Part shown: one piece after another, positions 10,391 through 60,214 of the stretch | Layout: every line of letters starts with the position of its first letter | Numbering within the stretch: position 1 is the first letter of the stretch | Assembly: GCF_002843425.1 (NCBI RefSeq) | Contig: NZ_NKXO01000015.1 | Location: 1-64,000 of the forward strand | Direction of reading: 5' to 3' | Length of the DNA stretch: 64,000 nt | Source: Raineya orbicola | GTDB lineage: Bacteria; Bacteroidota; Bacteroidia; Cytophagales; Thermonemataceae | Notes under the pieces: model-generated | Database searches by the model: none | The model's input: only the letters and a program-made list of their open reading frames with translations | Told to the model about the DNA's origin: nothing | Made by a program: the position numbers and the translations under genes

Positions 10391-10948
10391 ATGGAAACTC
10401 TGCTCAAAACATACACCTATCAAGATTTTCACAACGAATTTCCCGCAGAAACTCGTTGTGAAATTATTGATAATGAACTTTTTATGCCTCCTGCCCCTAA
10501 TACCGAACATCAAGATATTTCACGCGATTTGAGCGTAGAAATTCTTTTATTTGTCAGAAATAAACAACTAGGTAAAATTTACATAGCTCCCTTTGATGTT
10601 ATTTTAGACGAAAACAATGTCGTTCAACCTGATATTATTTTTATTTCAAACGAAAACTTAAAGCATCTTACTAAACGTGGTTTTGAGGGAGTGCCTGATT
10701 TAGTTGTGGAAATTATTTCGCCCTCTACATTCTATCGCGACAGCGTAGAAAAAAAAGACCTTTACGAGCAATTTGGCGTAAAAGAATACTGGATTGTAGA
10801 ACCCGCTAATAAGGTGATTGAAATTTTTACTTTACAAAATGGCAAGTACATTTTGCACCAATTTATAGCTGAACAAGGCAAAGTACAATCTAAACTACTA
10901 CAAGGCTTTGAAGTGGATTTGAAGGATATTTTCCCTCAAAATATGTAA
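10391..10948 (+). CDS. Uma2-family PD-(D/E)XK nuclease-like protein, copy A1
   Basis: This 185-residue DUF820/Uma2 protein shows the family order: TRCEIIDNELFMPPAPNTEH near the N-terminus, VVQPDIIFI (acidic ligand), GVPDLVVEIISPST (the E of ExK-type site) and YEQFGVKEYWIVEP. The fold is that of restriction-like nucleases, but the physiological role of Uma2 proteins is unsettled. It is followed after 3 bases by a close paralogue. The two are nearly identical except at about residues 47-72 and a few scattered positions. It interrupts the glycan locus. Confidence 0.85.
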   Translation: METLLKTYTYQDFHNEFPAETRCEIIDNELFMPPAPNTEHQDISRDLSVEILLFVRNKQLGKIYIAPFDVILDENNVVQPDIIFISNENLKHLTKRGFEGVPDLVVEIISPSTFYRDSVEKKDLYEQFGVKEYWIVEPANKVIEIFTLQNGKYILHQFIAEQGKVQSKLLQGFEVDLKDIFPQNM

Positions 10949-10951
10949 GCT

Positions 10952-11509
10952 ATGGAAACTTTGCTCAAAACATACACTTATCAAGATTTGCTGAACGAAT
11001 TTCCCACAGAAACTCGTTGTGAAATCATTGCTAACGAACTTTTTATGCCTCCTGCCCCTAATACCGAACATCAATTTATTTCAAGAGATTTGAGTGTTGA
11101 ATTACACTTATTTGTAAAGAGAAACCAAAAAGGACAAGTAGCCGTAGCTCCGTTTGATGTTATTTTAGACGAAAACAATGTCGTTCAACCTGATATTGTT
11201 TTTATTTCAAACGAAAACTTAAAATATCTTACCAAGCGAGGCTTTGAGGGCGTGCCTGATTTGCTTGTAGAAATTATTTCGCCTTCTACGTTCTACCGCG
11301 ATAGCGTTGAAAAAAAAGACCTCTACGAGCAATTTGGCGTAAAAGAATACTGGATTGTAGAACCCGCTAATAAGGTGATTGAAATTTTTACTTTACAAAA
11401 TGGCAAGTACATTTTGCACCAATTTATAGCTGAACAAGGCAAAGTACAATCTAAACTACTACAAGGTTTTGAAGTTGATTTGAAGGATATTTTTACCACC
11501 CAAGTTTGA
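10952..11509 (+). CDS. Uma2-family PD-(D/E)XK nuclease-like protein, copy A2
   Basis: This 185-residue tandem duplicate of copy A1 has the same motifs (VVQPDIVFI, GVPDLLVEIISPST, EYWIVEP). The last 70 residues are identical to A1 until the final four. Divergence concentrates at residues 47-72 (A1 LLFVRNKQLGKIYIAPFD, A2 HLFVKRNQKGQVAVAPFD). The DNA of the 3' half is also nearly identical, so the duplication is recent or kept alike by gene conversion. It is spaced 3 bases from A1 and 6 from the next Uma2 gene, consistent with one transcript. Confidence 0.85.
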   Translation: METLLKTYTYQDLLNEFPTETRCEIIANELFMPPAPNTEHQFISRDLSVELHLFVKRNQKGQVAVAPFDVILDENNVVQPDIVFISNENLKYLTKRGFEGVPDLLVEIISPSTFYRDSVEKKDLYEQFGVKEYWIVEPANKVIEIFTLQNGKYILHQFIAEQGKVQSKLLQGFEVDLKDIFTTQV

Positions 11510-11515
11510 GATATT

Positions 11516-12172
11516 ATGCTAAGCGAAGTAAAAACTTATACTTTTGAAGACTTCTTGAAATTTTATGAACGGCTGGGCGAGTCGGGCGGTTTTGAATTTT
11601 CCGATGGTTTGATTTGGGACAAATTCGCAGGAAAACCCGTTGAAGAAAGCATTATTGATTTTATCCTTTCTGATAATTTTAACGTCGAAAACCTACTTTT
11701 TTTCCAAACTATGCCCACGCAAAAACACGATGATTTACTGGCAAACCTTATGTTTTTTTTAGCTTCTATGCTGAAAGAGAAAGGCTTTGCAATTTATCCA
11801 CAAAAAACGGCTATTGCAAAAAATAGTGAGGACGGATTTAGAGAACCTGATTTAGTAATTGTAAATTGGAAAGAACAAAAACGAAACAAATATCATCAAG
11901 TCTTAAATCCTGTGATGCTTGTGGAAGTGCTTTCTAAAAGCACTAAACATATAGATTTAGGCGAAAAAGTGTTGGAATACCAAGCTATACCCAGTTTACA
12001 AACCTACTTGATTATTTGGCAAGATGAACCCAAAGCGGTTATTTATACTCGTAAAGCTGAAAAAGTATGGGAAGAACGCATCTATGAAAGTTTGCAAGAA
12101 ACGATAGAGCTTACTTATTTTGATGTAAAATTACCTTTGAAACAAGTGTATGAAAACATAAATTTTGAGTAA
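11516..12172 (+). CDS. Uma2-family PD-(D/E)XK nuclease-like protein, divergent copy A3
   Basis: The 218-residue protein is a divergent member of the family and not a recent duplicate of its two neighbours. It keeps MPTQKHDDLLANLMFFLASML, FREPDLVIVNW, NPVMLVEVLSKST and YQAIPSLQTYLIIWQ. An N-terminal extension (about 60 residues, FKFSDGLIWDKF-like region) is not in A1/A2. Its 3' end overlaps the TTG-initiated upstream extension of the acetyltransferase gene. Function beyond a nuclease-like fold is unknown. Confidence 0.8.
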   Translation: MLSEVKTYTFEDFLKFYERLGESGGFEFSDGLIWDKFAGKPVEESIIDFILSDNFNVENLLFFQTMPTQKHDDLLANLMFFLASMLKEKGFAIYPQKTAIAKNSEDGFREPDLVIVNWKEQKRNKYHQVLNPVMLVEVLSKSTKHIDLGEKVLEYQAIPSLQTYLIIWQDEPKAVIYTRKAEKVWEERIYESLQETIELTYFDVKLPLKQVYENINFE

Positions 12173-33803: not shown

Positions 33804-33906
33804 AAACATTCTGAAAGAATAAAAAAATTTTTTTCAAAAATCTTTGTTACAACAAGAATTTTATCCGTTTTTCAGTATCCCTAAACGCAAATTTCACAAA
33901 AAATGT

Positions 33907-33929: not shown

Positions 33930-34529
33930 ATGACCAAAATCACCGATTTCAATACTCTGGACTTGAACCAAACCTACTCATACGCCGATTACCTACTCTG
34001 GCAATTTGAGGAACGTTTGGAACTTATCAAAGGTAAAATTTTCAGAATGTCCCCTGCTCCAAGTATGAAACATCAAAAAGTAGCAAGTCGTTTGCATACT
34101 TATTTCGGTAGTTTCTTATTAGGGAAATCTTGTGAGCTATTTTCTGCCCCTTTTGATGTGCGTTTGTTTGATAGGAAAAAATCAAAAAAAGCAAATAAAG
34201 ACATCTACACCGTCGTTCAGCCTGATTTGTGTGTGGTGTGCGATAAAGAAAAATTAGACGAAAGAGGTTGCCTCGGTGCCCCTGACCTTATCATTGAAAT
34301 CCTTTCCAAAGGAAATTCCAAAAAAGAAATGAAAATCAAATATGAACTCTATGAGGAAGCAGGTGTAAAAGAATATTGGATTGTTGTGCCTTACGAGGAG
34401 TTTATTCATCTGTACGTACTCAATGATAAAGGCAAATACGAACTCAAAGGTATTTTCGTTGATGGCTCTATCCCCTGCCAACTCTTCCCCGATTTGCAAG
34501 TTGAGCTAGAAAAAATTTTTGAAGAATAA
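33930..34529 (+). CDS. Uma2-family PD-(D/E)XK nuclease-like protein, copy B1
   Basis: This Uma2/DUF820 protein of 199 residues begins MTKITDFNTLDLNQTYSYAD, matching the start of the next two copies, so ATG 33930 is chosen over TTG-like 33903. It carries LELIKGKIFRMSPAPSMKHQ, TVVQPDLCVVCD, GAPDLIIEILSKGN and EAGVKEYWIVVP (nuclease core). Compared with B2 and B3 it is nearly identical outside residues about 50-75. It is the first of three tandem genes separated by 12 and 11 bases. Function is unknown beyond the fold. Confidence 0.85.
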   Translation: MTKITDFNTLDLNQTYSYADYLLWQFEERLELIKGKIFRMSPAPSMKHQKVASRLHTYFGSFLLGKSCELFSAPFDVRLFDRKKSKKANKDIYTVVQPDLCVVCDKEKLDERGCLGAPDLIIEILSKGNSKKEMKIKYELYEEAGVKEYWIVVPYEEFIHLYVLNDKGKYELKGIFVDGSIPCQLFPDLQVELEKIFEE

Positions 34530-34541
34530 ACACAAAAAATT

Positions 34542-35141
34542 ATGGCAAGAGTTACCGATTTTAATACTCTGGATTTGAACCAAACCTATTCTTATGCCGA
34601 TTATCTCCTCTGGCAATTTGAGGAACGTTTGGAACTTATCAAAGGCAAAATTTTCAGAATGTCCCCTGCTCCGAATTTTAAGCATCAAAAAGTAGCAGGA
34701 AATCTACACCTCATTTTTGGCAACTATTTACGAAAGAAAACTTGTCAAGTTTTTTTTGCCCCCTTTGATGTGCGTTTGTTTGATAGGAAAAAATCAAAAA
34801 AAGCAAATAAAGACATCTACACCGTCGTTCAGCCTGATTTGTGTGTGGTGTGCGATAAAGAAAAATTAGACGAAAGAGGTTGCCTCGGTGCCCCCGACCT
34901 TATCATTGAAATCCTTTCCAAAGGAAATTCCAAAAAAGAAATGAAAATCAAATATGAACTCTATGAGGAAGCAGGTGTAAAAGAATATTGGATTGTTGTG
35001 CCTTACGAGGAGTTTATTCATCAGTACGTACTCAATGATAAAGGCAAATACGAACTCAAAGGTATTTTCGTTGATGGCTCTATCCCCTGCCAACTCTTCC
35101 CCGATTTACAAGTTGATTTAGAAAAAATTTTTGAAGAATAA
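34542..35141 (+). CDS. Uma2-family PD-(D/E)XK nuclease-like protein, copy B2
   Basis: The 199-residue protein is the middle copy of the array. The N-terminal 47 residues and everything after APFDVRLFD are almost identical to B1 at both protein and DNA level. The window HQKVAGNLHLIFGNYLRKKT... to VFFAPFD differs strongly. Motifs for the nuclease fold are intact (VVQPDLCVV, APDLIIEIL, KEYWIVVP). The upstream spacer ACACAAAAAATT is repeated before B3, showing the duplication unit includes the spacer. Confidence 0.85.
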   Translation: MARVTDFNTLDLNQTYSYADYLLWQFEERLELIKGKIFRMSPAPNFKHQKVAGNLHLIFGNYLRKKTCQVFFAPFDVRLFDRKKSKKANKDIYTVVQPDLCVVCDKEKLDERGCLGAPDLIIEILSKGNSKKEMKIKYELYEEAGVKEYWIVVPYEEFIHQYVLNDKGKYELKGIFVDGSIPCQLFPDLQVDLEKIFEE

Positions 35142-35152
35142 ACACAAAAATT

Positions 35153-35758
35153 ATGGCAAGAGTTACCGATTTTAATACTCTGGATTTGAACCAAACCTAC
35201 TCATACGCCGATTATCTCCTCTGGCAATTTGAGGAACGTTTGGAACTTATCAAAGGTAAAATTTTCAAAATGTCCCCTGCTCCAAGTATGAAGCATCAAA
35301 AAGTGGCAGGAAATCTGTATTTTTATATGCGAGAATACCTACAAAAAAATGATTTATGTTGTAATTTGCTTATTGCCCCCTTTGATGTACGATTATTTGA
35401 CAAGAAAAAATCCAAAAAAGCCAATAAAGAAATTTACACCGTTGTTCAGCCTGATTTGTGTGTGGTATGTGATAAAGAAAAATTAGACGAAAGAGGTTGC
35501 CTCGGTGCCCCTGACCTTATCATTGAAATCCTTTCCAAAGGAAACTCCAAAAAAGAAATGAAAATCAAATATGAACTCTATGAGGAAGCAGGTGTAAAAG
35601 AATATTGGATTGTTGTGCCTTACGAGGAGTTTATTCATCAGTACGTACTCAATGATAAAGGCAAATACGAACTCAAAGGTATTTTCGTTGATGGCTCTAT
35701 CCCCTGCCAACTCTTCCCCGATTTACAAATTGAGCTAGAAAAAATCTTTGAGGAATAG
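35153..35758 (+). CDS. Uma2-family PD-(D/E)XK nuclease-like protein, copy B3
   Basis: The 201-residue third copy has the same conserved N- and C-terminal blocks. Its central window (GNLYFYMREYLQKNDLCCNL then LIAPFD) is two residues longer and unlike B1 or B2. DNA in this copy differs a little more (DKKKSKKANKE). Nuclease motifs are intact. The end of the gene is followed by 367 bases without a gene, including the inverted-repeat element and the rplM promoter. Confidence 0.85.
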   Translation: MARVTDFNTLDLNQTYSYADYLLWQFEERLELIKGKIFKMSPAPSMKHQKVAGNLYFYMREYLQKNDLCCNLLIAPFDVRLFDKKKSKKANKEIYTVVQPDLCVVCDKEKLDERGCLGAPDLIIEILSKGNSKKEMKIKYELYEEAGVKEYWIVVPYEEFIHQYVLNDKGKYELKGIFVDGSIPCQLFPDLQIELEKIFEE

Positions 35759-35823
35759 TTTTTGTAATTGAGGTTGTTTAAGATTAAAAAAGATTTCCGA
35801 AATATTTTTGAATTGTACTTGAT

Positions 35824-35937
35824 AAACCACCCCTTAATCCCCTCCTTGGGAAGGAGGGACGTTGGGATATTCCAAAAATTTGATTTTTAGGACTTAAAAC
35901 TCCCCTCCTCAATGAGGAGGGGTTGGGGGTGGTGTTT
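35824..35937. repeat. Inverted-repeat element with two G/C-rich palindromes (MITE- or REP-like)
   Basis: The left end AAACCACCCC, with palindrome CCCCTCCTTGGGAAGGAGGG, is mirrored by the right end, whose complement reads AAACACCACCCCCAACCCCT followed by a second palindrome CCCCTCCTCAATGAGGAGGGG. The ends are imperfect inverted copies about 110 bases apart, with an AT-rich centre and no coding potential. G/C content is far above the flanking DNA. It fills most of the gap 35759-36060; the rest of that gap shows nothing recognisable. Confidence 0.7.
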
Positions 35938-36036
35938 TTAATCCTATCTATCAATCACGTTTTTTTACGAAGAATAAATAAAAAATTACAATCCTAAAAA
36001 CATCTATTTCTTATTCTCAAAAAATTACGAAAAATA

Positions 36037-46254: not shown

Positions 46255-46728
46255 TTACTGAAACATTTGGGTCATAGTCTGCCAGATGAGATTTTTGTAA
46301 ATTTTTTGAGTTTCTATTTCTTGAAGAGAATGAGTTAAAAGTACCCACACACCTTTCCATTTTTGCCAAGAATATTTTTCTACTTGCAGACCTATATTTT
46401 TAGCGGTATTTTCACCAAAAACTACTACATATTTTACTTTTGTACTTGAAAAATCCCAGTAAATATGTCTTTTTTCAGGGAAAGTGAGTATTTCTTTTTC
46501 TACGTTTTCTATGGAAGGTGAGTTTTTTTGTTTTTCGGCTAATGCTTTGAGCATACTATCCAAAACCTTCTGATTTTTTGCGTTTTGTGTATTTGTATCA
46601 ACTTCTGTCTCAAACAAAAAAAGTATTTCAGCTTCACAATTAGCCAGTAAAGCTGAAATAGAAGCATCATATTCAGGTACTACGAATATCGGTGTATCAA
46701 AAAAAAGTGCTATTTCTTGCAAATTCAT
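46255..46728 (-). CDS. Unidentified 157-residue protein, last gene of a restriction-modification operon
   Basis: No family is recognised with confidence. A Rossmann-like alternation VKYVVVFGENTAKNIG and a C-terminal KNLIWQTMTQMF (Trp in a helix) weakly recall the psi (HolD) subunit of DNA polymerase III, which is poorly conserved. Its ATG overlaps the REase stop by 4 bases (46725-46728), so it is co-translated with the R-M genes. Possibly an unrelated downstream housekeeping gene captured by the operon. Confidence 0.6.
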   Translation of the reverse strand: MNLQEIALFFDTPIFVVPEYDASISALLANCEAEILFLFETEVDTNTQNAKNQKVLDSMLKALAEKQKNSPSIENVEKEILTFPEKRHIYWDFSSTKVKYVVVFGENTAKNIGLQVEKYSWQKWKGVWVLLTHSLQEIETQKIYKNLIWQTMTQMFQ

Positions 46729-47480
46729 TGTGAAGTATTTTCCAAAAATAATTCTGCGGGATTTATTTTAAATTGTAACATATTAGCTGTTTTTCTGCCA
46801 GCATCTCCTCCTTTTCTCTGCATTGTAATTCTACCTATTCTAAAACTTCCACCTGGGGTAATTAAAATTTCCCCATTACCGAAGAAGTTCAAGCAAAAAT
46901 TCATAGGTCTAAGTATCCACCGAGCATTCAAGTTTATTTTCTGAGCTACTAACATCCATTCAGCGGCGAATTTACCTCTACCTTTGAGTATATCGGTGAT
47001 AATCATTGCTTGGTTGGCTTTTAACCATTCTAAAATGCTTTTTTGCTCATCTATGCTAAACTCATCTGCAAACATTCTTCTTTTATCTCTTAAATTAGAT
47101 TTACCCATTTGCAATTCTCCTGTAAAATATTTTAAGAGTATGACTATTTCATTAGGAATATGCCACAAATCCGCATAATAATCAACCCAGTGTTTATCTA
47201 TCTGGTTAAATCCTCTTACATTACTTACAAGTTTTACCTGAATATTTTGAACATCTAAAGCTTTTTGAAGCCGAATGCGTACTTGTACCTGTACATCTGT
47301 TTTATATCCATATATTTTAATAGCTTCCACCCATTCAATTTCATCTAACTTATAATTCATTATTTTTAACCATTCTCGGGCTTCTGCATCGTATTGCCAT
47401 TGATTGAATTTTTTGATAATATCATCTTCGTTTCTAAAACCATCCTTTGCTATCTTTGAACCTGTAATAAAATCAGCCAT
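46725..47480 (-). CDS. HinP1I-like type II restriction endonuclease (predicted G^CGC)
   Basis: The 251-residue protein matches my recollection of R.HinP1I over the whole length: IAKDGFRNEDDI, NIQVKLVSNVRGFNQIDKHW, KDKRRMFADEFS-like, RGRGKFAAEWMLVAQK and QRKGGDAGRKTANMLQFKI. The catalytic pattern TDX18QXK is at residues 61-83 (Asp62, Gln81, Lys83), the same positions as in HinP1I. The specificity G^CGC is inferred from that similarity. The gene overlaps its methyltransferase partner by 8 bases and the 46255 gene by 4. The methyltransferase precedes it, so protection is made first. Confidence 0.88.
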   Translation of the reverse strand: MADFITGSKIAKDGFRNEDDIIKKFNQWQYDAEAREWLKIMNYKLDEIEWVEAIKIYGYKTDVQVQVRIRLQKALDVQNIQVKLVSNVRGFNQIDKHWVDYYADLWHIPNEIVILLKYFTGELQMGKSNLRDKRRMFADEFSIDEQKSILEWLKANQAMIITDILKGRGKFAAEWMLVAQKINLNARWILRPMNFCLNFFGNGEILITPGGSFRIGRITMQRKGGDAGRKTANMLQFKINPAELFLENTSQ

Positions 47481-48267
47481 TATTACAAAGATTAAATAAA
47501 TTTAGAGTATTTTCCAATCTTTTTTCTGCAATCTGTACATATTCTGTCGAAATTTCAGACCCTATCCATCTTCTATTCATAGCCCTTGCCACCTTAGCAG
47601 TAGTACCACTACCCATAAAAGGGTCATAGACCAAATCACCTTCATTTGTCCAAGTATAGATTTGGTCATAAACAAGTTGTTCAGGAAAAATAGCGGGGTG
47701 TTGATAAGCAACTTTATCTTTGGTAGAAATACCCCCACCAATGGAATAAAAAAACACATTTCCCACTTTTTTTTCAGAGGTTCTTAAAATCTGTTTGTAT
47801 TCAAGTGAGCCATTTTTCCCCCTATTTTTCATATTAGCAATACCGTTGTATTTAGTAGGCTCAGTAATTGGATTGAAAGTTATAGGCGTATCTTTAGAAA
47901 AAGCAAACATATATTCAAAATGCTGGTGGTATCTTTTGCCCGTTTGAGGCATAGGATTATTCTTGTAGTAAATCATCGTATCGTGAATACGAAAGCCTAC
48001 TTGTTCCTTAAAAAATAACGCCTGCTTGAAAGATGTGCCTGTTTCACTTCCTTCTATTGTAGCATCAGCTACTACCCAAATCATTACTCCTCCTTTTTTC
48101 AGTACTCTAAATAGCTCTTGGGCTATTTTTTCAAATTCAAATTGATAGCCATTATAGTTCCTAATATCATCATAAGGCGGGGAGGTAATAATAAAATCTA
48201 CAAATTCATCGGACATTCTTTTCATTGTATCAAGGCAATTTTCACAATATATCCGATTTAGCTCCAT
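47473..48267 (-). CDS. DNA amino-methyltransferase (TSPPY type), partner of the HinP1I-like endonuclease
   Basis: The 264-residue beta-class methyltransferase has motif IV TSPPYDDIR (residues 28-36), then motif I DPFMGSGTTAKVA near residue 217 and SAM-site IGSEISTEY. The SPPY form favours N4-cytosine methylation, though N6-adenine is not excluded. It is not the C5-cytosine class. It is the first gene of the three-gene operon. It presumably modifies the cognate site and protects host DNA. Confidence 0.85.
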   Translation of the reverse strand: MELNRIYCENCLDTMKRMSDEFVDFIITSPPYDDIRNYNGYQFEFEKIAQELFRVLKKGGVMIWVVADATIEGSETGTSFKQALFFKEQVGFRIHDTMIYYKNNPMPQTGKRYHQHFEYMFAFSKDTPITFNPITEPTKYNGIANMKNRGKNGSLEYKQILRTSEKKVGNVFFYSIGGGISTKDKVAYQHPAIFPEQLVYDQIYTWTNEGDLVYDPFMGSGTTAKVARAMNRRWIGSEISTEYVQIAEKRLENTLNLFNLCNNG

Positions 48268-59203: not shown

Positions 59204-60214
59204 TCAACTTACTTCTTTTCGTAATGCTTCTATTTCGTTTTTTCCCAAACCTGTAACCTGAATGATAATTTCATCATCAAATCCTAATTTTATCAGGTTT
59301 TTGGCAGTAGAAAGTTTTGCTTCTTTTATACCTTCTTTTATACCTTCCTTTATACCTTCTTCAATACCTTCTTTTTTTCCTACTTTTTTCCCTTCCTCAC
59401 GACCTTCTTGCAAACCTTCTTCTCTTGCTTTTTTGATAGACTCAACCACATAAGAAATTTGGTCTAACCAAAATTTTTGTTGCGAGTCATAATACATACG
59501 TTCTTGCTCATCAAGGTACATAGCTTTTAGGCGTAAATCCGCTTTTTGAATTTCACGAATTTCTGCTAATTCTTGAGGCAATTGCTGTGTTTTGAATTTA
59601 TAGGCGTTATTCAGAAAAGCTATCCAACGTTCCAAAGTGCTTCTCACACCTGTAAGTTCATCTTTGAACTTACGAAGTTCTATGAAATAAAGGTCTAAGT
59701 AGTCCAAATCCTCACTGGTTTCATTGGTATCACCATCTTTGAGTGTAAAATAACGCTTATATCTTTCGTCATTGAAAAAATTAAAGTCCATCAAACTTAT
59801 GACTATACATTTTTTCAAACCTGAGTAGCCCAACTTACCTTCTCGTTCAAGTTGAGATAAGCGTTCCATTTCTTCAAGTTGTTTATCGGCGGTAGGTATT
59901 TCGTTGATATAATCCAGTTGCGAGCCGTACATTTTTGCCCAATAGAAAAGCACCCTTTTTCCGTAAAATTTGCTTGAACGAATTTGCATTTCAATATCAA
60001 AGAGCCTGCCATCAACACTTTCTGCTTTAATGTCTAAAATAGAAAGTTTGCCTTCTATGTAATCGGCAAAGTTGTAAGGATTTTTCAGAGTTATATCTGC
60101 TACTTGTTGATGAGGAGGCAAGATAGCATTTATCAAAGACATCAAAATGTCTTTGTTCTCCTCTGAACCAAAAAGTTTTTTGAACACTAAATCAACTTTG
60201 GGATTGAGTATCAT
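59204..60214 (-). CDS. Rpn-family PD-(D/E)XK recombination-promoting nuclease / putative transposase
   Basis: The 336-residue protein opens LNPKVDLVFKKLFGSEENKD. ILDIKAESVDGRLFDIEMQI (the D and ExQ active-site pair), KRVLFYWAKMYGSQL and VISLMDFNFFND follow, the standard Rpn/PDDEXK_2 pattern. The C-terminal third has a Glu/Lys-rich helix built from EGIK repeats (12-base DNA unit at 59321-59368), a region often variable in length in this family. In E. coli Rpn proteins are DNA endonucleases that raise recombination. It is convergent with comEC, 2 bases apart. Confidence 0.9.
   Translation of the reverse strand: MILNPKVDLVFKKLFGSEENKDILMSLINAILPPHQQVADITLKNPYNFADYIEGKLSILDIKAESVDGRLFDIEMQIRSSKFYGKRVLFYWAKMYGSQLDYINEIPTADKQLEEMERLSQLEREGKLGYSGLKKCIVISLMDFNFFNDERYKRYFTLKDGDTNETSEDLDYLDLYFIELRKFKDELTGVRSTLERWIAFLNNAYKFKTQQLPQELAEIREIQKADLRLKAMYLDEQERMYYDSQQKFWLDQISYVVESIKKAREEGLQEGREEGKKVGKKEGIEEGIKEGIKEGIKEAKLSTAKNLIKLGFDDEIIIQVTGLGKNEIEALRKEVS
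59321..59368. repeat. Four tandem 12-base units inside the Rpn gene
   Basis: TTCTTTTATACC is present twice, then TTCCTTTATACC and TTCTTCAATACC follow. Read on the - strand they encode EGI(K/E) repeats, so copy changes would stay in frame. Confidence 0.8.

Follow-up and report, generated by a model that had tools for sequence, protein, structure and literature searches.

Tandem Uma2 genes share a homogenised chassis and keep a divergent helix–strand module in each copy

Introduction

In HsdS of type I restriction enzymes, a conserved chassis carries interchangeable target recognition domains. Homophilic recognition is established for the clustered protocadherins of vertebrates. These adhesion proteins are encoded by tandem paralogs in which gene conversion homogenises the common part and spares the part used for recognition (PMC1852091).

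Uma2 proteins (DUF820, COG4636; PF05685) form a large family of putative endonucleases that has been unsolved for two decades. In PMC551604 (Feder and Bujnicki 2005), the fold, a conserved His with PD-EXX-K residues and the presence of tandem copies are described, the proteins are proposed to be selfish nucleases, and the family is reported to make up more than 2% of Gloeobacter genes. Work on Thermus also noted Uma2 expansion (PMC1274311), and PMC2701414 (Makarova and colleagues) refers to 'cassettes of paralogous genes' and to the family as a likely solo toxin. The available parts of PMC551604 and PMC2701414 contain no specificity segment, protected module, homogenised chassis or shared module types, and a literature search found no report of a variable Uma2 module. 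Here we describe a tandem Uma2 array, B1–B3, whose members differ mainly in one short segment. With moderate confidence, we propose that they are paralogs of a PD-(D/E)XK-type protein that combine a shared chassis with a paralog-specific recognition module.

Results

The window, that is the whole 64,000-nt stretch of DNA analysed, contains three intact Uma2 genes arranged head to tail. The genes, the spacers between them and their variable modules are:

33930..34529, + strand: B1, Uma2 gene, 199 aa (PF05685, E 1.5e-31), starting at the ATG that aligns with B2 and B3
34080..34145, + strand: B1 variable module, aa 51–72, placed by segment identity, of a type shared with L021 from another Microscillaceae genome
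34530..34541, + strand: B1/B2 spacer, 12 nt (start-to-start distance 612 nt, same frame)
34542..35141, + strand: B2, Uma2 gene, 199 aa (PF05685, E 1.3e-33), with an AF2 model
34692..34757, + strand: B2 variable module, aa 51–72, comprising most of predicted helix 46–63 and strand 69–72
35142..35152, + strand: B2/B3 spacer, 11 nt, a near copy of the B1/B2 spacer
35153..35758, + strand: B3, Uma2 gene, 201 aa (PF05685, E 1.7e-31), with an AF2 model of pLDDT 91
35303..35374, + strand: B3 variable module, aa 51–74, two residues longer, on predicted helix 46–65 and strand 71–74, as in B2

An alternative upstream ATG for B1 at 33903 (ORF list) would give 208 aa. The profile scores of the array genes (109.5–116.3 bits) lie far above the curated PF05685 cut-off of 27; the NCBIfam profile search returned no match. 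The array is flanked by a divergently oriented HU gene and by rplM/rpsI/rpsB. No cognate antitoxin gene, as a type II toxin–antitoxin system would have, adjoins it; the upstream neighbours encode HU and a TPR protein and the downstream ones ribosomal proteins. The repeated spacer reported in the preliminary description is indeed present as 11–12 nt of near-identical DNA, and is a remnant of tandem duplication that needs no further explanation. B1 and B2 (33930–35141) share a frame, with only one TAA and four further codons between them. Spacing by a multiple of three is also seen in the second array of the window and in several arrays elsewhere.

B1, B2 and B3 are very similar on either side of a short central segment. 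From the start to HQK (50 aa), pairs are 90–94% identical in amino acids and 88–94% in nucleotides, and from APFDV to the C-terminus the values are 97–98% and 95–98%. The segment between HQK and APFDV, which begins just past the invariant His48, has an amino acid identity of 45% for B1/B2, 29% for B1/B3 and 38% for B2/B3, and a nucleotide identity of 52–59%. Flank dS in these pairs is 0.05–0.57, and segment dS is 1.1 or saturated. The preliminary description of tandem, near-identical copies with a divergent center is thus correct, but the segment is shorter than the 30 residues given there, with 22–24 residues (aa 51–72; 24 residues in B3). Its statement that the DNA is nearly identical outside the segment fits chiefly the C-terminal part, because the N-terminal DNA of B1 and B2 is only 88% identical, with a dS of 0.57.

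Structure prediction, which had been suggested at the outset, places the segment on a helix beginning at the conserved His and on the strand that follows. For B2, the AF2 model (34 sequences; pLDDT 89.5, pTM 0.87) shows these as helix 46–63, starting at invariant His48, and strand 69–72. The same helix and strand are predicted for B3, although its segment is only 29–38% identical to the others and two residues longer. The B2 model has a PD-(D/E)XK-like fold as in 1wdj and 3ot2, and its PDB matches are 6okh (Z 25), 9y1l (Z 23.7), 3ot2 (Z 19.3) and 1wdj (Z 18.9). By profile, motif and fold, B1–B3 are therefore members of the Uma2/DUF820/COG4636 family, with which they also share proliferation and tandem cassettes. 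The putative catalytic residues of B2, His48, Pro98–Asp99, Glu123 and Lys137, are invariant in the 34-sequence alignment and occur in the order given in PMC551604. Asp99, Glu123 and Lys137 all lie within the conserved chassis, outside the module. One Uma2 class lacks His48, so this residue itself is not essential to the variable-module pattern.

Within the module, the most variable positions (53, 56, 57, 60 and 61) form one face of the helix, positions 51, 55, 59, 62 and 63 stay hydrophobic, and Cys68 and Ala73–Pro74 are almost invariant. Only 4–18% of residues on the variable face are charged, and many are small or aromatic. At 53/56 and at 57/60, small residues tend to be offset by large ones (volume compensation, r about −0.46), and a charge swap links helix residue 50 with strand residue 69. 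Only helix neighbors and the 50–69 pair stood out in covariation. We rejected covariation as proof of an intermolecular contact, as 53/56 and 57/60 are i,i+3 neighbors on one helix. As the side chains on this face differ widely between copies whose chassis are almost the same, shape-specific packing of the face against the chassis is implausible; contact with itself in an oligomer, or with some other molecule, is more likely.

The first of these possibilities is a special case of the recognition-module explanation. The helix face would be a homo-oligomer interface that serves as a self-recognition code, and selection would prevent copies that occur together from mixing with each other, an insulation of paralogs like that of clustered protocadherins. 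The low charge of the face, its wealth of small and aromatic residues, its volume compensation and its loose relation to the chassis are consistent with such an interface. The solved relatives 6okh, 9y1l and 3ot2 were also deposited with two chains, although two deposited chains do not establish a biological dimer. However, with equal chassis the gain from insulation is not evident, and between families the module types are better conserved than the chassis, a hint of outside constraint. We consider self-recognition possible, but on the doubtful side. Alternatively, the helix and strand may read a DNA or RNA site, like the target recognition domains of HsdS, so that each copy cuts elsewhere. 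Stable, conserved module types would suit conserved sites. However, a typical nucleic-acid reading helix is richer in Lys and Arg than the variable face of Uma2, which has few of either. The PD-(D/E)XK fold and the intactness of the H-PD-EXX-K residues (PMC551604) speak for target recognition, which we nevertheless judge unlikely.

The divergent segment is not confined to B1–B3. The genome (3.07 Mb, 104 contigs), which among named relatives matches a Microscillaceae MAG (Cytophagales) best, contains 20 Uma2 genes, among them five near-identical tandem sets: B1–B3, A1/A2, pairs on contigs C2 and C4, and a trio on C12. All five sets diverge at the same segment. A1 and A2 lie in the window:

10391..10948, + strand: A1, Uma2 gene of the second array, with its variable module at about 10517–10585
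10952..11509, + strand: A2, tandem partner of A1, with its variable module at about 11078–11146

A1 and A2 are 88% identical in the N part, 58% in the segment and 96% in the C part. The second array spans 10391–12172 and includes a third, distant Uma2 gene that starts at 11516, after A2.

Arrays were then gathered from about 25 further genomes. Among 47 tandem pairs from 30 loci, taken with flanks at least 80% identical and without selection on segment identity, the segment was more than 20 points below the flanks in 40. Most arrays in other Cytophagales behave in this way, as do those of a Lachnospiraceae genome (L046) and of Pseudanabaena (L144 and L145), the cyanobacterial sample being one plasmid. 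In 28 of 34 tandem pairs, divergence is highest in a 23-residue stretch that begins at aa 38–51 (binomial p 1e-25; pairs chosen with segment identity <0.9, those within one array not independent). Identical modules occur in a few arrays (L082, L086 and two members of the C12 trio), as recent duplication would predict. The variable module is thus a rule of the Uma2 family and not a peculiarity of the B1–B3 locus. Collapsed or chimeric repeats could in principle produce such a pattern in a draft genome of 104 contigs, but an assembly artefact is exceedingly improbable, because the pattern is seen in many independent assemblies and on the complete plasmid NC_019690.1.

Synonymous divergence is concentrated in the segment. 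Pooled over the 34 tandem pairs, dS is 0.39 on the N side, 2.41 in the segment and 0.36 on the C side, so the equal synonymous divergence that would have spoken against a special segment is absent. In pairs with segment identity <0.8, a choice that heightens the peak but does not account for the decay, pooled pS is about 0.73 in the segment, drops to 0.54 and 0.44 in the bins next to it and, farther out, reaches 0.28 (N side) and 0.14–0.27 (C side). Such a profile is expected where conversion homogenises the copies while events that overwrite the segment do not persist. The peak and its decay are the footprint of gene conversion that homogenises the chassis and spares the segment.

The preliminary description had also raised diversifying selection. 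In the sense of dN/dS above 1, this is not borne out: synonymous sites in the segment are saturated, and pooled dN/dS is 0.14 on the N side, 0.19 in the segment and 0.12 on the C side of the tandem pairs. Between relatives sharing a segment type, it is about 0.10, with a segment identity of 0.73 against 0.80–0.88 for the chassis. With dS saturated and dN/dS far below 1, positive selection in the segment was rejected. The same saturation and lack of dN/dS above 1 indicate that the modules diverged long ago and that their differences have been maintained since.

Segment and flanks also have conflicting histories. B1 has 15 of 22 segment residues in common with L021, a single gene of Microscillaceae SKYG84, against 10 of 22 for B2 and 7 of 24 for B3. 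The three array genes agree with one another against L021 in the flanks, whereas the segment sites of B1 side with L021 (Fisher 8e-5 and 1e-7, in tests that pool neighboring sites). L021 (4001–4597) has one in-frame stop, at residue 120, and may therefore be degenerating; stops are also present in several Uma2 genes of genome G001. The same conflict is seen best between arrays L102 (genome G095) and L097 (genome G070), which belong to different genera. Across the two arrays, the first copy in one and the second copy in the other have 82–83% segment identity, while identity within the two arrays is 43% and 22% in the segment and 97–98% in the C flank (Fisher 1e-5 and 4e-9). Tests of module sharing for Dyadobacter and the C2 pair are each weak alone (p 0.01–0.3), with a matching direction in Dyadobacter.

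Among 140 proteins of the class with His48 and Pro74, unrelated segments are 26–29% identical (sd 9–10), and discrete segment types recur across families, conserved at 0.6–0.73. A QG-LFI type is found in L071, L072 and three Dyadobacter, and an SGIFYN type in L097, L056, L057 and L124; L097 and L056 share 73% of the segment at just 61% flank identity. Uma2 genes of one module type are also present on two IMG/VR viral contigs (L113 and L114; segment 0.68 at flank 0.41). Module types predate the species and stay conserved between relatives, and each copy therefore keeps its own module. The synonymous peak that decays on both sides, the conflicting histories and the recurrence of types in distant genomes bear out the earlier suggestion of gene conversion around a specificity segment.

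A neutral origin of the pattern was weighed against these data. As the least constrained part, the segment would drift first, and mismatches would then block conversion, with no functional difference between copies. Divergent DNA does hinder conversion, and the segment evolves somewhat faster than the flanks between orthologs (pN 0.165 against 0.07–0.125). However, the low dN/dS between relatives sharing a type, the retention of the buried positions and of Cys68, Ala73 and Pro74, and the conservation of discrete types between families, compared with 0.28 ± 0.09 for unrelated types, all speak against this, and we give neutral escape little credence. Active switching, in which modules are supplied from silent copies by phase variation or a diversity-generating retroelement, would account for the cassette-like look of the segment, and module types shared between genera could have been transferred. 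However, the genome holds no silent copy of B1's module: in a search with that module only, the above-chance matches were B1, B2, a short part of the Uma2 gene on contig C13 and, in B3, 21 bases on the N side. No template repeat was found among the array repeats or these matches, the array has no close inverted repeats, and the edges of divergence are graded rather than sharp. Switching is therefore very improbable.

Discussion

The chassis of tandem Uma2 copies is homogenised by gene conversion, and the module, an exposed helix face after His48 with the next strand, is spared. Since the near-identical copies otherwise differ only there, the module would have to carry a selected functional difference, and it probably determines the binding target of each copy. 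In the recognition-module explanation, conversion would keep the chassis common to all copies, conversion events that overwrite a module would be lost, and selection would keep modules distinct between copies and conserved within a type. The module would set what each copy docks on. Docking might be between proteins, as self-association in homo-oligomers or as binding of a partner, and might place or license the putative nuclease site (His48, Asp99, Glu123 and Lys137), which adjoins the module. Our literature search found no report of a ligand, oligomer or nuclease activity for any Uma2 member, and this counts against the recognition-module reading. More speculatively, Uma2 proteins across bacteria may draw on a common set of discrete address modules, each a helix and a strand, carried by one nuclease chassis. 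Genomes would hold different combinations of types, and concerted evolution would keep the chassis and protect the address, giving a solitary, partner-free recognition code.

The closest analogue in evolution is that of the clustered protocadherins (PMC1852091), which are likewise tandem paralogs with a homogenised common part and a spared recognition part. They are unrelated to Uma2, however, and homophilic recognition is a possibility for the latter. Uma2 resembles HsdS in that an interchangeable-looking specificity segment sits on a conserved chassis, but the HsdS segments are much larger, read DNA and are linked to methylation, and no methylase adjoins B1–B3. Profiles of PDC-S03, a candidate single-gene anti-phage system in PADLOC, match B2 (E 3e-56) and A1 (E 1e-51). 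PDC-S03 is a candidate system by profile, and the B1–B3 and A1 genes sit among housekeeping genes; a literature search found no paper under that name.

These results point to some 22 residues, including a named helix face, as the likely site of functional difference between Uma2 paralogs. Near-identical sets (B1/B2/B3, the L097 pair and the L094 trio) are ready-made material for module swaps, and Uma2 arrays add a bacterial example of conversion-homogenised copies with a protected specificity segment.

Other features of the window deserve mention. A HinP1I-type restriction endonuclease (PF11463, E 3e-85) adjoining an N6/N4 DNA methylase is encoded at 46725–48267. A PD-(D/E)XK family transposase/Rpn-like protein (PF12784) with an EGIKEGIKEG repeat is encoded at 59204–60214; proteins of this kind, COG5464, have been linked with COG4636 by gene neighborhood and domain fusion (PMC1913061). 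Downstream of B3 lies a G-rich element of about 130 bp (35815–35945). About eight copies of it at 84–90% identity, along with additional partial ones, are found elsewhere in the genome, and it resembles a small interspersed repeat.
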